From the NCBI RefSeq assembly GCF_018608325.1, contig NZ_JABAZW010000142.1, forward strand, positions 325-41,311: a stretch of DNA of 40,987 bases. Direction: 5' to 3'. The stretch is from Brevundimonas sp. (GTDB lineage: Bacteria; Pseudomonadota; Alphaproteobacteria; Caulobacterales; Caulobacteraceae). The position numbers were made by a program, and so were the translations under genes. Positions 4,453 to 38,096 of this stretch are shown in pieces. The notes beneath the pieces are model-generated. The model was not told the DNA's origin, ran no database searches, and worked only from the letters and a program-made list of their open reading frames with translations. Position 1 is the stretch's first letter. Every line of letters starts with the position of its first letter.

Positions 4453-5172
4453 ATGACCCATCGCGACCTAGAAGGCTGGACCATCGCCTTTGATCTGGAT
4501 GGGACGCTGGTCGATTCCGCGCCGGACCTGATCGGAACCCTGAACCGGCTTCTGGTCGAAGAGGGTCTGCCGACGGTCGCGATGGAAGAGGCGCAAAAGC
4601 TGATCGGCTCCGGAGCGCGGGCCCTGCTGGTTCATGGCTTTGAGGCAGCAGGCGCATCGGTCGAGCGCGCGGAATCCGACGAGTTGTTCGAACGGTTCCT
4701 GACCGACTACACCGCCCATATCGCTGACGGCTCCCTGCCGTTCGAAGGCGTGGTCGAGACGCTGGAGCGGTTGACGGAGCGCGGCGCTATTCTGGTGGTG
4801 GCCACCAACAAGCGCTCGGACCTGTCGGAACTGCTGCTTGAAAAACTGGAACTGACCCGGCATTTCGCCGCCATCGTCGGTCCCGACCGCGTCAGCGCCC
4901 GCAAACCTTCCGGCGCCCATCTGAAGGAGGCCGTCACTCAGGCCGGTGGTGATCCCGAACGCGCCATCATGGTCGGTGACGCCGCGCCCGACGCCGGTGC
5001 AGCGCGTGACGCAGGCATGCCCTGCATCCTGACCACCTTCGGCTATACCCCCGTGCCGGTCGAGACGTTGGGCGGCGACGTGTTGATCGACGCCTTTGAA
5101 GACGTTGAGGAAGCCATCGACGGCGTCCTGTCCGACTTCTACGTCCTGAAGGCGCTCAAAGGGATGATGTAG
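4453..5172 (+). CDS. gph: Phosphoglycolate phosphatase (HAD family)
   Basis: The 239-aa HAD-superfamily hydrolase has motif I FDLDGTLVDSAPDL at about residues 13-26, with two catalytic aspartates. Motif II is VVATNK, motif III falls near the ARKPSG lysine, and motif IV is MVGDAAPDAGAARDAGM. A helical cap follows motif I, as in Gph. It probably dephosphorylates 2-phosphoglycolate. HAD substrate ranges overlap, so another small phosphoester is possible. It is cytoplasmic and lies upstream of a transporter gene on the same strand with a 108-bp gap, so co-transcription is uncertain. Confidence 0.85.
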   Translation: MTHRDLEGWTIAFDLDGTLVDSAPDLIGTLNRLLVEEGLPTVAMEEAQKLIGSGARALLVHGFEAAGASVERAESDELFERFLTDYTAHIADGSLPFEGVVETLERLTERGAILVVATNKRSDLSELLLEKLELTRHFAAIVGPDRVSARKPSGAHLKEAVTQAGGDPERAIMVGDAAPDAGAARDAGMPCILTTFGYTPVPVETLGGDVLIDAFEDVEEAIDGVLSDFYVLKALKGMM

Positions 5173-5280
5173 AAAAACTGAGGGTGGGTTGCAGAAAAAC
5201 TGACGCCCGAACCCGCGCCGGTACGGTTGCGGATTGCGGGCGCAATGGACAGATTGGCGCACTGTTTTGAAAGTACGTCC

Positions 5281-6570
5281 ATGCTCGCCCGCCTCTTCAA
5301 AATCCCCCTGTGGCAACGCACAGCCGCAGGGTTCGCCCTGGGCATCCTTGCTGGACTGATACTGAGAGAAAAGGCCGAGGTCTGGCTCCAGCCGATCGGC
5401 GACGTCTATCTGAACCTGATCCGCATGGTGGTCGCGCCTCTGGTGCTGTTCACCATCGCCAGCTCCATCGCCAAGCTGGGCGAGGGGGCAGGGGCCGTGC
5501 GTCTGGGTGTGCGCACCATCGTCTGGTTCGCCATCACCTCCCTGTTGGCCGTTCTGGTCGGTTTCGCCTTTGGTCACATCATCAATCCGGGCGTGGGCCT
5601 GTCCAACCTGCCACTGGGCGAGGTCAAGGAACGGGTGATCCCGACTCCGCTTGAGGTTCTGATCGGCGTGGTGCCGCGCAACCCGTTTGCGGCTCTTGCC
5701 GAGGGCAAGGTGCTGCAGATCATCTTCTTCTCGGCGCTTGTCGGGATGGCGCTGGTGGCGCTGGGCGACCGGGCGCAGGGCGTACGGCGGCTGGTGGACG
5801 AAGGCGCCGCAGTCGTCTTCCGCATCACCCGCTGGGTGATCCAGCTGACGCCCATCGGCGTGTTCGGCCTGATCGGTTCCGTGGTCGGCGGTTACGGCTG
5901 GGAAGCCCTGCTGCCCCTGCTCAAGTTCATCGCCGCCATCTATGCCGCCTGCCTGTTCCACATCCTGATCGTCTATTCGGGTCTGTTGAAGTTGCATGGG
6001 CTGAAGGTCCGCAGCTTCTTCCGCGGCGCCTTTGCCGCGCAACAGACTGCCTTCGCTACCTCGTCGTCGCTGGGCACCCTGCCGATCACCCTGCGCCAGA
6101 CGGTCGAGCGTCTGGGCGTACCCCAGGCCTATGCCGCCTTCGCCGTGCCCCTGGGCGCCAATGTGAAGATGGACGGCTGCGGCGCCATCTATCCGGCCAT
6201 CGCCGCGATTTTCATCGCCCAGTATTTCAAGATCGACCTGACGATCACCCAGTACATCCTGATCGGCCTCACGGCGGTTCTGGGCTCGCTGGGCACGGCG
6301 GGGGTTCCGGGAACCTCCATCGTCATGCTGACCCTGACCCTGTCCACAGCGGGCCTGCCGCTGGAAGGCATCGGCTATATCGTCGCCATCGACCGCATCA
6401 TCGACATGATGCGCACAGCGACCAATGTGACCGGCCAGATGGTCGTGCCGGTGCTGGTGGCCAAGGAAGAAGGCATCCTGAACGAGGACATCTATAACGG
6501 TCACGTCGCCTGGCTGCCGGGCGACCCGGATGCGGACACCGCAGAGACGGTGAAAGCCGCAGGAATCTGA
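5281..6570 (+). CDS. Dicarboxylate/amino acid:cation symporter (DAACS family)
   Basis: The 429-aa inner-membrane protein carries the family landmarks in order: hydrophobic N-terminal helices, the serine-rich hairpin TSSSLGTLPIT, the KMDGCGA motif replacing the usual NMDGT, the second hairpin AGVPGTSIVM, and the DRIIDMMRTATNVTG helix. It should import C4-dicarboxylates or acidic amino acids with sodium or protons. The NVTG motif is followed by Q where sodium-coupled relatives have D, which hints at altered cation coupling. The track ORF starts at 5227, but ATG 5281 gives a start typical of the family (MLARLFKIPLWQR). The 717-aa minus-strand ORF over this locus is a shadow. Confidence 0.9.
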   Translation: MLARLFKIPLWQRTAAGFALGILAGLILREKAEVWLQPIGDVYLNLIRMVVAPLVLFTIASSIAKLGEGAGAVRLGVRTIVWFAITSLLAVLVGFAFGHIINPGVGLSNLPLGEVKERVIPTPLEVLIGVVPRNPFAALAEGKVLQIIFFSALVGMALVALGDRAQGVRRLVDEGAAVVFRITRWVIQLTPIGVFGLIGSVVGGYGWEALLPLLKFIAAIYAACLFHILIVYSGLLKLHGLKVRSFFRGAFAAQQTAFATSSSLGTLPITLRQTVERLGVPQAYAAFAVPLGANVKMDGCGAIYPAIAAIFIAQYFKIDLTITQYILIGLTAVLGSLGTAGVPGTSIVMLTLTLSTAGLPLEGIGYIVAIDRIIDMMRTATNVTGQMVVPVLVAKEEGILNEDIYNGHVAWLPGDPDADTAETVKAAGI

Positions 6571-7801: not shown

Positions 7802-8605
7802 CTAGTGCGGCTTGCTGGCCCATATAATCACTGTCTCGCCAGCTAGGTTTTCGATGAGCCTCTCTCGGATGAGAGGCTCATCCTCCTCATCAGGAGACAC
7901 AATGGTCGCGACTGACCGAACTTCAAATCCGACCCCTTTCAGAAACTCGGCCAGTCTGGTGTGCCTGAAATAGTGGATGTGCCACGGCGGCGCCCACCAC
8001 TTCCAATCCTGACGCTCTGCCTGCGCCTTGGCGCTTCCCCAGTGCGGTAGAGCGAGTATCAGCAGGCCGCCAGGGCGAAGCAAATCCCAGAACTTTCTCA
8101 GCGCTGCATATGGATCCGGCATGTGTTCAAGTGCGTGGCTTGAGCAAATGGCGCCAACCCCACTTAGGATAGGAAAATCCGGGTCAAGGACCGTTCCCGA
8201 CCATGCCTGAGCGCCATGGGCGCGAATAAATGAGGTAGCGTCGCCGTTCGGATCTATACCCCAAGCGTCATATCCAATCCGCGACCATTCAATGGGCCCG
8301 AGGCCGTGGGAGCAGCCTACGTCCATCAATGTCTCGCCATCCTGAATGCCGTTGCACCGCAGATCGCGTTGAAAATCAGCAGCCTGTTGACGCCAAGGGG
8401 ACGGATCGCGCAACCAATCCGCCGCTATTCCATCGCCTTGGTCACTGAAGCAGTTCTTCTCTCGATATGCGTTTGACAAGTCCGGTATGGGCCAAATCAT
8501 TTCGGCTCCGCACTCACATTCGACAAGCCTCCAGTCGTCGTGACGCAAGGTCACTGCACCAGATCGGGACGCGCAAGCGGGACAGATGAAGCGTTCGTGG
8601 AGCAT
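7802..8605 (-). CDS. SAM-dependent methyltransferase with N-terminal zinc ribbon
   Basis: The 267-aa protein begins with a CPAC...CECG zinc-ribbon-like pair (residues 8-11 and 30-32). A class I methyltransferase fold follows: SAM-binding motif LMDVGCSHGLG (about 93-103), then SSHALEHMPDPYAALRKFW and LRPGGLLILALP in the order seen in the type 11/12 families. The substrate is unknown. It is the last gene before the attachment site, next to the tailspike, and both are less GC-rich than their surroundings. That position suits a cargo gene altering the lysogen, for example by modifying surface sugars, but this is inference. Start ATG 8605. Confidence 0.75.
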   Translation of the reverse strand: MLHERFICPACASRSGAVTLRHDDWRLVECECGAEMIWPIPDLSNAYREKNCFSDQGDGIAADWLRDPSPWRQQAADFQRDLRCNGIQDGETLMDVGCSHGLGPIEWSRIGYDAWGIDPNGDATSFIRAHGAQAWSGTVLDPDFPILSGVGAICSSHALEHMPDPYAALRKFWDLLRPGGLLILALPHWGSAKAQAERQDWKWWAPPWHIHYFRHTRLAEFLKGVGFEVRSVATIVSPDEEDEPLIRERLIENLAGETVIIWASKPH

Positions 8606-34239: not shown

Positions 34240-34767
34240 TCATTCATCGTCATCGTCCTCGAAATCAGCCCGTCTGACTCGCTCAGAGTCTGACGATGGA
34301 AGGCTAAGTGGCTGATATGGTTCGGCTTCGATGACACCCGGCAACCGATTGTTTGTCGGTTGCCCTCCCAAATGCACCTCTTTCGTGATGATCTGGACGA
34401 GCTGACGGGCCTGCTCGGGCATGGCTGCACGGGCGTCCTTGTCCGCGTCGATGAAGACCTTGGCGGCCTTGAGGCGCACATCCTCAGACATGCCTCGGCG
34501 CTGCAGATCGGCCGCCGTGAGCCAAGCCTGCTCTGTTTCAGAGGCCAACCACGCGCGCTTGACATCGGCCCTGAACGCTTTGACGTGCGGCTTGATTAGG
34601 GCTTTGGCTAAGCTTTCGGTCTTGTAGCCTGTGCGTTTGGCGGCATCCGCAACTGTCAGGCCCTCATGAACGATGAGCGTGATCGCGGTGCGCAGAGCGG
34701 GGCTTACACGGCCCTTGCGGATCATGGCGCCGTCGCGATCATACAGGCCGTGGTCGCCAGTGGACAT
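34240..34767 (-). CDS. HTH protein, possible terminase small subunit
   Basis: 175 aa. A basic N-terminal region leads to a helix-turn-helix, LIVHEGLTVADAAKRTGYKT (about residues 31-50), then a helical domain rich in charged residues and an acidic tail (FEDDDDE). This architecture occurs in small terminase subunits that recognise phage DNA. It is far from the large subunit (26.5-28.1 kb), so another DNA-binding role is possible. The start ATG overlaps the upstream XRE gene stop. Confidence 0.5.
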   Translation of the reverse strand: MSTGDHGLYDRDGAMIRKGRVSPALRTAITLIVHEGLTVADAAKRTGYKTESLAKALIKPHVKAFRADVKRAWLASETEQAWLTAADLQRRGMSEDVRLKAAKVFIDADKDARAAMPEQARQLVQIITKEVHLGGQPTNNRLPGVIEAEPYQPLSLPSSDSERVRRADFEDDDDE

Positions 34768-35213
34768 CAGGCGGCGTCCTTGTGCAGTTCAGCGCGACGA
34801 GGGGCGGGTACAGCTCCGATGTCCTGGGCCTGTTGAACCGGCATGAGGACGAGGGCGAGGCCGAGGCTCTCAAGCCATACGTCGCCCATCATCGAGATCG
34901 AGATGCGGCCGGAGAAGGCGGCGGTCGAGTTGTCGGGATCATCGGACGAGCAGGGGGTGATGACGAAGCCCGCCTTTCCAGACGGCTTGTCGCCATGCTC
35001 CAGCTTTGAGGTGTACCGATCCGACCACCCCGCATGAGCATCGAGGTCTTCGCAGGTCATAGCCTGGGCCATGCGATGCGACCGAAGCAGGGCGGCTATG
35101 TCGGCGCGACTGTGAACGATGGTCGGCGCGGTTACAGCACGTGCGTCACGCCATGCTGCCCGGCCCATGCCGATGACTGGCTGTTCGGAGTGTGAGGCGA
35201 CGTCCTGCTGCAC
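34767..35213 (-). CDS. XRE-like HTH regulator
   Basis: The 148-aa product (GTG 35213) has a helix-turn-helix of the Cro/CI type at about residues 35-75: SRADIAALLRSHRMAQAMTC, then a second helix ending in RYTSKLEHG. The C-terminal 70 residues are beta-rich and of unknown type. It lies directly downstream of the repeat-rich region 35340-35556, which could hold its operators. It is a candidate for control of early genes; whether it is the lysogeny repressor cannot be told. An internal start is possible. Confidence 0.6.
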   Translation of the reverse strand: MQQDVASHSEQPVIGMGRAAWRDARAVTAPTIVHSRADIAALLRSHRMAQAMTCEDLDAHAGWSDRYTSKLEHGDKPSGKAGFVITPCSSDDPDNSTAAFSGRISISMMGDVWLESLGLALVLMPVQQAQDIGAVPAPRRAELHKDAA

Positions 35214-35339
35214 TTCTTCGGTCCCCGCAGAGAGGGCCGGTCCGAAATGAGGTGCGCCAACACCCTGTCGTTATGCGTGACGATGCTTAAGGCGCGGCTA
35301 ACGATAGGGCCGAAAAGGGGTCGAAAACCGAGCGAGAGG

Positions 35340-35556
35340 GGATGACCCCCTATGTATATGTCTCCATATTGATAAACGATATGTATCTACGATACCCCCC
35401 CCACATCCCACTCGCTCGATAATTGGGGTATAAAGTATTGATATATATAAGGAACCGAGTGGGATTTTAACCATCCCACTCGAATCCCGCTTGCCCCGTT
35501 TTTGACCTGTTCAGGTCGAGTGGGATGGTCGAGTGGGGATGACAAAATCCCACTTG
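35340..35556. repeat. AT-rich inverted-repeat (iteron-like) cluster; origin or operator candidate
   Basis: The decamer CGAGTGGGAT or its complement occurs at 35405-35414, 35456-35465, 35473-35482 and 35517-35526, with near copies at 35484-35493, 35530-35540 and 35547-35556. Two form a large palindrome with a 7-base loop (35456-35482). A separate dyad, GACCTGTTCAGGTC, is at 35504-35517. The left part (35340-35460) is unusually AT-rich, with ATATGTATC and GATATATATAAGG. The region lies between the primase and the XRE gene; 35214-35339 shows no gene. Confidence 0.6.
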
Positions 35557-35610
35557 CATTAAGTGTTTGGTAAGCGGGTGGGAGGGGTGAACTGGGGTGG
35601 ACGAACAACG

Positions 35611-35640
35611 AAAAAGGGGCCGGATTCTCATCCAGCCCCC
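35611..35640 (-). terminator. Rho-independent terminator after the primase gene
   Basis: On the minus strand GGGGCTGGAT pairs with ATCCGGCCCC (one T-G pair) around a GAGA loop, followed by TTTTTCG. It lies 27 bp after the primase stop. Confidence 0.85.
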
Positions 35641-35666
35641 TCTGCATGCGTCCGTATGAAGTGGCC

Positions 35667-38096
35667 CTACACCGCCACCCTGTACCACTTCACCTTATGC
35701 CCGCCTGATGGCGGCTGACGGTCCTCTCGCTCCAGATCGCCCCCATCGACAAGGCCGTCCAGCATCTCCTTGAGGTCTTTGGAGCGCATGCGGTTCTTGA
35801 GGGCCTGGGCGATGTCGCGATAGGCCATCCAGCTCCGGCCGCGCAGAACACGCATGATGCGCTGCGCCTCGCCCTGATGCTGCGTCTCGGCCATGTAGCT
35901 GCCCGCCATCGACAACACCTGCTGGGCCGACCACATGGCCAGATCGGCGCCCCAATCCATGTCCTCCAGCGTGACGACGGGATTGGCCGGATTGATGCCG
36001 ATGGCGCGAATGACCGCCAGGCGCTGCGCCATCTCGGCCGTGCGGGTGAAGAACACCTGATCGTGGTCCATGCGTCCGATGCGCTCCGACAGGGCCATAT
36101 AGGCCTTGTGGGCATGGCCTCCGGCGCCGTCCTGCCATGGAACGATGATCATGGGCGCATCGGCTGACATGCTGTGGCTGGTGGCGCGGGTGAGGGGATT
36201 GCCGGAGTTATAGATCGCCGTCATCCCCTCGGTGATCGAGGCCGGAACCTCCATCTTGTCCGCCAGCGGCTCGCGCTCCTCGACCCGCAACAAGGTCGGA
36301 ATGATAAGGAAGCGGTTCAGGAAGCCGTTGAACACGTCGCCGCCCTCCAGGTTCTCGAAGAACTCCTCGTGCGTGGACACGCCGTACAGGCTCAACGCCG
36401 GGCTATGGACCGGCTCTCCCACGCGTCCCGCCCACTCCGGCATCGCCATGGTGTCGAAGCTGGATCCCCATGCCGACCGCAGGATGCCGGTAATGGCCCG
36501 CTCGTGCGTCGATGCCTTGCGCCCATTGATCCTGCCAAGGAACGACCCGAACTCGTCAATGCAGGTCAGGGTCAGCGGCTGACGGGTCAGGCGGCTGATG
36601 ACGGCGGACAGGGACATGAATCCGCCCGGACCGTAGTGGTGCCCCATGCTGCAGGCGTGAAGCACCCGCCCCACGCACTTCAACGGATGATCCTTCGCAG
36701 CTCCCGACGGCGCCAGAAACAGGCCGTACAGATGGGTGCCGGTCAGGGTCGGCCCGGCGAACTTGCGACCGGCAGCGGTGCCGATCAGCTCCAGGGCAGC
36801 CAGCAGGGCCCCGCCCCGCTGCGGCTTGCGGGCAGAGTCCGAGATCCAGTCTGTTAGCGCGCCCACAAGGCCGGGGACGCGGGTCAAGTGGTCGGGCAGC
36901 TCGTGGTCTGCACTCGAAACGCCCTTTCGAGTGTTTTCGAGTTCGGCGCCGCCCTCGAATCCAGCATCGGCGGGCTTTTGGGGCTCAAAAGGTGGCGAAA
37001 TGGACGATTTGGGCGCCAGCGAGGCCGAAGCTTGCTTAGGGCGCAGCGGCTCGGGCAGATCGTCGTCGCTGATACCCTGCTGGACCTCGGTTAAACCGAG
37101 GCCCAGATCAATCACCACCCCGTCTTCCTTCAGCCCCAGCCGCTCACGCAACCAGTCCGTTGCAGCGGGCTCTTCCACGTCGAGCGCCGCCATCACAAGA
37201 TCGATGGCGCTGTAGGTGTGGTTGGTGCCGAAGTCCTTGATGCCGTCGCGCTGGATCGACAGGTTCAGCTTGCGCTCTGGGATCGGCCGACCGGTACATG
37301 ACGCGCGCCACGTCGCGACCGCCTCGTATCCGCCGCGCGCCGAACGACAGCCGTAGAGGTCCAGTGCTGGAACCCATGCCGACAGGTTGTCCAGAGCCGC
37401 CGTCTTCGTCTCTGACCAGATGTCGTCGGGGTCGATATCAGGCGGCGCGGCCTTGCGCGGCCTGTTTGTGACGGACGACGTGCGTTCACGCGACCACCCG
37501 CATTGCTCCAGCGCCTCTTCCAGCGCCTCCATGTCCTCGTCAGTGAGAACCGGAAGCTCCTTGGCGGCGACCGGACCGCGCGTCCAACTGTAGGGCTGGC
37601 GCGTGTCGGGGTGGATCGACGGCGGACAAACGGTCTGGCGCGTGTCGAAGCCGGTCAGGACATCGAGCAGGCGACCATCTGGTCCGTCATACTGCGCCGT
37701 CTTCCGCGTCTTCGGCGCCAGATAGAACCGGCTCTCGCCTTTCTGGCCGCGCTTGACCATGGGCGAGGCCGGAGCGACCGCCAGCAGGGAGGTGAGGGCG
37801 TCAGGATCGGTCGCGTCGAAGTCCAGCACGACGACGTGCAGGTCCTTGCCGACCTGAGAGCCGCAGACGATGCCGATGTTTGCGCCGGGCGCGGCGAGGG
37901 CGACTTTCAGTTCGATGCCTGACAGTGTTTCGTCGCGGAATCGTTGCCATTTCGACATCCCCTGCCAGGCGCCGGATCGGTACGTGCCCGGACATTTTCC
38001 CCGGCCATTGTGGGGCGTGTAGTCGTAGGCGATCAGCGGTATTGGGTTAAAGCCGAGAGCGACAAGCTGCTCGTGGGCTGAGGCGAAGGGGGTCAT
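35667..38096 (-). CDS. Primase-polymerase/DUF3987-type helicase-like replication protein
   Basis: The 809-aa protein has an N-terminal Prim-Pol-like domain (about residues 1-200) with the metal-binding LDFD at 91-94 and FDTRQTVCPPSIHPDTRQPY further on. Its C-terminal half resembles DUF3987 ATPases, with a P-loop-like APSGAAKDH (462-470) and Walker B-like CIDEF (512-516). A winged-helix-like tail ends in GGHKVKWYRVAV. It should prime and perhaps unwind phage DNA. The usual Prim-Pol histidine motif reads ESRFYL here and the P-loop lacks the standard GKT/S, so activity is uncertain. It overlaps the gene before (ATGA). Confidence 0.75.
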   Translation of the reverse strand: MTPFASAHEQLVALGFNPIPLIAYDYTPHNGRGKCPGTYRSGAWQGMSKWQRFRDETLSGIELKVALAAPGANIGIVCGSQVGKDLHVVVLDFDATDPDALTSLLAVAPASPMVKRGQKGESRFYLAPKTRKTAQYDGPDGRLLDVLTGFDTRQTVCPPSIHPDTRQPYSWTRGPVAAKELPVLTDEDMEALEEALEQCGWSRERTSSVTNRPRKAAPPDIDPDDIWSETKTAALDNLSAWVPALDLYGCRSARGGYEAVATWRASCTGRPIPERKLNLSIQRDGIKDFGTNHTYSAIDLVMAALDVEEPAATDWLRERLGLKEDGVVIDLGLGLTEVQQGISDDDLPEPLRPKQASASLAPKSSISPPFEPQKPADAGFEGGAELENTRKGVSSADHELPDHLTRVPGLVGALTDWISDSARKPQRGGALLAALELIGTAAGRKFAGPTLTGTHLYGLFLAPSGAAKDHPLKCVGRVLHACSMGHHYGPGGFMSLSAVISRLTRQPLTLTCIDEFGSFLGRINGRKASTHERAITGILRSAWGSSFDTMAMPEWAGRVGEPVHSPALSLYGVSTHEEFFENLEGGDVFNGFLNRFLIIPTLLRVEEREPLADKMEVPASITEGMTAIYNSGNPLTRATSHSMSADAPMIIVPWQDGAGGHAHKAYMALSERIGRMDHDQVFFTRTAEMAQRLAVIRAIGINPANPVVTLEDMDWGADLAMWSAQQVLSMAGSYMAETQHQGEAQRIMRVLRGRSWMAYRDIAQALKNRMRSKDLKEMLDGLVDGGDLEREDRQPPSGGHKVKWYRVAV

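Follow-up and report, generated by a model that had tools for sequence, protein, structure and literature searches.

The repeat cluster at 35333-35556 in a Brevundimonas prophage is, with a probability of about 85% as judged from sequence comparisons and a structure model, an iteron replication origin that is recognised by the winged-helix tail of the Prim-Pol replicase of the phage. The window, by which we mean the whole stretch of DNA analysed (40,987 nucleotides), lies on a 49.9-kb contig. The left end of this contig contains host genes for a hexapeptide/NTP-transferase protein and a sodium:dicarboxylate symporter, while the remainder is prophage DNA that encodes head and tail proteins, a terminase, an endolysin and replication functions; no nucleotide match to it was found among known phages. 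The gene for the replicase (35667..38096, - strand) encodes 809 amino acids with an N-terminal Prim-Pol domain, a helicase-like middle region that in relatives matches DUF3987, and the modelled winged-helix tail (codons 738-809; 35670..35885, - strand), which covaries with the repeat word. The gene for an XRE-like protein (34767..35213, - strand; HTH_31, below cut-off) adjoins the array on the other side, and just beyond it is a gene for a small-terminase-like protein of 175 residues (34240-34767). All genes in this segment point leftward. The cluster is thus 3' of the gene for the primase and 5' of that for XRE, in the gap where the sequence-only reading had placed it. About 110 bp separate the array from the 3' end of the primase gene, and this interval contains no annotated gene. 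An 86-residue reading frame that runs over the array (35387-35647, - strand) belonged to no family, had no match in relatives and was discarded. Two further features of the contig were recorded. A repressor-like gene (L011:13793-14674), CI-type by eye with no Pfam match, points away from the early genes and likely marks the immunity region, and a helicase gene just past the right end of the window is broken by a short run of N (XXXX; L011 ~8,200-8,500, contig C174 ~41.3 kb).

The cluster contains four exact copies of the 10-mer CGAGTGGGAT, at 35405-35414(-), 35456-35465(+), 35473-35482(-) and 35517-35526(+), and three near copies, at 35547 (-, 1 mismatch), 35484 (-, 2 mismatches) and 35530 (+, 2 mismatches). 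These are the seven copies in both orientations that had been claimed from the sequence alone, to which we add one diverged copy, CGAGAGGGGAT, at 35333-35343; a further and weaker similarity is seen at 35575(+). The 10-mer is absent from the rest of the 49.9-kb contig and occurs only twice in the rest of the 3.5-Mb genome. When the window was shuffled 60 times by a Markov model, the highest count of any 10-mer within 220 bp was three, never four. The 27-bp palindrome that had also been noted corresponds to 35456-35482, with arms of 10 bp and a spacer of 7 bp, and a second, imperfect inverted pair of the same length is found at 35530-35556. The AT-rich flank was likewise recovered, with an AT content of 60-70% at 35340-35399 and 35420-35479 as compared to about 40% in the flanks. 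No clear switch in GC skew was found at the cluster.

The copies fall into three modules. Module A (35517..35556) consists of the copies at + 35517-35526, + 35530-35539 (CGAGTGGGGA) and - 35547-35556 (CAAGTGGGAT), the last two of which form the imperfect 27-bp pair, and an equivalent three-copy module is present in close relatives. Module B (35456..35493) contains the two arms of the palindrome, + 35456-35465 and - 35473-35482, followed by - 35484-35493 (CAAGCGGGAT). Module C is an inverted pair with a left arm at 35405..35418 (CGAGCGAGTGGGAT, read on the - strand) and a right arm at 35329..35343 (CGAGCGAGAGGGGAT, + strand), the latter being the diverged copy; CGAKCGAGTG, which is similar to the left arm, is retained in most close relatives. 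The segment between the two arms (35344..35394) is about 60% AT and a candidate melting site, and a second AT-rich segment (about 70% AT) separates modules B and C (35419..35455). Iteron sets are therefore located on both sides of AT-rich DNA, with A, B and the left arm of C on one side and the right arm of C, a single diverged copy in the window, on the other. A run of eight G on the - strand (35395..35402) marks the inner edge of module C. Almost all relatives have a G/C run of 6-10 in this region (5 in L062), and further G-runs were seen at the far edge in relatives; the G-runs at module C could possibly form a G-quadruplex or serve as a priming site. The GACCTG-TT-CAGGTC dyad of the sequence-only reading is indeed present, at 35504..35517, but is not conserved in relatives and is probably outside the core element.

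As a single strand, the cluster folds into a more stable structure than its shuffles (z = -4.05). This is what would be expected of a stem-loop origin in which the folded structure matters rather than the word, as for the Prim-Pol replicases of pRN1 and phage BIP-1, whose genes are followed by a stem-loop (PMC4234260). Yet inverted iterons alone would give such a fold, the words are arranged directly as well as inverted at near helical-turn spacing, and the copies preserve the word, which covaries with the predicted DNA-binding tail. Direct repeats are also included in the arrays of L097 and L090. We consider a stem-loop origin improbable, and an array of iterons read by the replicase tail explains these features better.

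Scanning IMG/VR with the sequences of the primase and XRE yielded about 14 distinct related phage contigs of similar layout. Wherever the region was present in close relatives, a repeat array lay a short way upstream of XRE. The closest relatives share a layout in which a three-copy module is followed by a mirror-image module and by an inverted pair whose arms, 72-80 bp apart, enclose a G-run and AT-rich DNA; the spacing of the copies, 10-13 and 21-22 bp, is close to full turns of the helix. The words themselves are lineage-specific, with GGGAT, AGGAT, TCAT or TCAC after CGAGTG, or TGTGGAA or GGCGTCACT instead. The window has CGAGTGGGAT, which is found with variants in L014; the other words are CGAGTGAGGAT in L015, L019, L020 and L029, CGAGTGTCAT in L028, CGAGTGTCAC in L062, CGAGTGTCCC and CGAGTGGCGCC in L022, mixed words after CGAGTG in L016/L021, a TGTGGAA-type word in L066, AGGTTAGTTAGTT in L067, GGCGTCACT in L079-L081 and only weak repeats of CGTGAAAC in L032. 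Lack of conservation in relatives had been named as grounds for rejecting a functional cluster. Relatives do keep the layout, and what differs is the word, which changes with its presumed reader. Two of these regions, L022 and L032, are located on one contig (IMGVR_UViG_3300046000_007143, 60,786 bp) and differ in both tails and words; this contig perhaps represents two prophages or a joined assembly. In L024 (~5,100-5,600, - strand), and equivalently in L022 and L032, modules A and B are replaced, beside the array, by an opposite-strand gene, HTH-like by eye, that has no counterpart in the window.

To identify the protein that the word follows, we calculated partial rank correlations for 12 phages. 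Word similarity correlated with the identity of the primase tail, given the primase body and the XRE HTH, at 0.88 (p 0.0002), and at 0.82 after removal of near-duplicates (permutation p 0.0003), whereas the correlation with XRE, given body and tail, was -0.02 and remained about 0 throughout. Other word measures yielded word-tail correlations of 0.55-0.73 (p 0.011-0.0017), and the primase body retained a smaller correlation with the word. These p-values are only indicative, since we devised the word measure ourselves and are comparing related phages. The strongest evidence for coupling at the sequence level comes from two pairs that differ by a replaced tail on an almost unchanged body. L058 is 89% identical to L014 in the body and 98% in the XRE HTH but only 22% in the tail, and has no CGAGTG; similarly, L059 is 88% identical to L029 in the body and 23% in the tail, with zero CGAGTG remaining. 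A nucleotide alignment of L066, which shares its contig with L059, to L020 gave 89-94% identity in the body, 41-49% in the tail and 35-51% in the array, with several islands of 80-92% identity in the 3.5 kb between tail and array. Tail and array are separate low-identity tracts in this pair, and the coupling is therefore not that of one block carried along. There are counter-cases: the tails of L016/L021 are about 99% identical to that of L029, yet their words after CGAGTG are mixed, and the replacement word in L032 is weak. Comparison of the sequences shows a conserved array that covaries with the replicase tail.

The sequence-only reading had left open an origin, a control region, or both. 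The comparison supports the origin well; the half that concerns a control region or XRE operator is unsupported. The word is uncorrelated with the XRE HTH when the primase tail is taken into account. An operator through which the XRE protein controls a promoter for its own and the late genes would explain why the array directly precedes the XRE gene, both in the window and in all close relatives, and why its inverted pairs look like dimer operators. However, L022 and L028 have different words although their XRE proteins are 97% identical with identical HTHs (100%), and CGAGTG is present in L014 and absent from L058 despite 98% identity of the HTH. XRE homologues in other Brevundimonas genomes (L044-L047) have no repeats directly upstream, distant primases carry arrays without XRE, and the repressor-like gene sits elsewhere on the contig (~46.8-47.7 kb), all of which makes such an operator an unlikely explanation. 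In L044-L047 the XRE homologue comes after a small-terminase-like gene. A search of named genomes with XRE gave no confirmed match.

Packaging sites are frequently located near terminase genes, and the 175-residue small-terminase-like protein, encoded just past XRE, could in principle read the cluster as a pac or cos site. Its versions are however only 51% identical in L015 and L029, which share the AGGAT word, and 100% identical in L022 and L028, which have different words, so that we regard this reading as very improbable. Promoters for a single-subunit RNA polymerase were considered since CACTCGA resembles CACTATA, but were dropped because no such polymerase was found among the proteins scanned, which did not include every gene, and because the copies occur in both orientations.

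The genes of more distant primases (24-49% identity), those of two cultured rhizobial phages among them, are often directly followed by an array with a different word and no XRE. In other alphaproteobacteria (30-49% identity) these words are CGGTTGTCCCC in Chelatococcus, CTGACAAACGC in Methylocystaceae, AAGGTTGTCACC in Hyphomicrobiales and, in a Brevundimonas (L084:4624-7041), CGTTGCA, directly 3' of the gene for a Prim-Pol that carries another helicase domain (AAA_25). The cultured phages Rhizobium RHph_TM3_3_14B and Sinorhizobium AP-16-3 have near-identical tails and a common word, GGCAATTCCAAA. Six to seven copies of a 7-mer were observed in 6 of 14 regions 3' of primases as compared to 0 of 556 background tiles. 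No array was found directly 3' of the primase in the Methylobacterium group (L085, L087, L091, L093) or in Roseobacter phage CRP-902, and the arrangement is therefore common but not universal.

The C-terminal ~72 residues of the primase are modelled as a winged helix. A structure model of residues 700-809 (mean pLDDT 84) consists of helices followed by a two-strand wing, and its PDB matches are mostly winged-helix DNA-binding proteins, including a ROK repressor on its operator, MarR, PadR, TFE and Zalpha, with modest Foldseek E-values of which the best is only 3e-3. The model of the full-length primase (pLDDT 52) was too poor for use.

We infer from these data how the origin may be bound, melted and primed. 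The eight copies of the 10-bp word, three each in modules A and B and an inverted pair in C around AT-rich DNA, would serve as iterons that are bound by the C-terminal winged helix of the replicase encoded just upstream. The replicase would assemble on the words, its helicase part would open the AT-rich segment and its Prim-Pol part would prime synthesis. More tentatively, and with somewhat less than even odds, alphaproteobacterial Prim-Pol phages may use a modular origin code in which tail and array are swapped as separate tracts but never one without the other. Each lineage would then have an origin specificity of its own, and co-infecting relatives would be unable to use one another's origins. 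The tail swaps found in nature supply pairs in which the encoding of origin specificity can be measured, and the pairing of a putative origin with its reader is a concrete, testable proposal for a broad group of Prim-Pol phages with unannotated origins, including the cultured Rhizobium and Sinorhizobium phages.

Literature searches retrieved no paper that describes this element, which does not prove that none exists. Among the closest parallels is the rep-ori system of SaPIs and other PICIs (PMC6092414, PMC7581432), in which the C-terminal domain of the initiator-helicase Rep reads short iterons directly downstream of the rep gene (PMC7581432). The predicted reading by a C-terminal domain is alike, as are the iteron sets on either side of an AT-rich region, found in the window, and the origin immediately 3' of the initiator gene, found in the window and several distant relatives; in many close relatives about 1-4 kb lie between the primase and the array, which is beside XRE. 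The differences are that the proposed initiator here is the single Prim-Pol replicase of a complete phage and that there are more modules, in both orientations, with a G-run. If confirmed, PICI-type iteron origins would not be exclusive to those satellites. The alpha protein of P4, as described in PMC4234260, likewise unites a primase and a helicase with a winged helix, through which it binds the repeats of its origin, as is predicted for the present replicase; its primase, however, is of the bacterial Toprim type rather than an archaeo-eukaryotic Prim-Pol. The replicases pRN1 ORF904 and that of Bordetella phage BIP-1 share the order of Prim-Pol, helicase and C-terminal winged helix, and a proposed origin 3' of the gene, but the origin proposed for these is a large stem-loop with no iterons (PMC4234260); an iteron array would imply that Prim-Pol/winged-helix replicases are not restricted to stem-loop origins. 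By analogy, the best explanation is that the element operates in the manner of the SaPI and P4 systems, but with a replicase of the pRN1 kind and in full phages.
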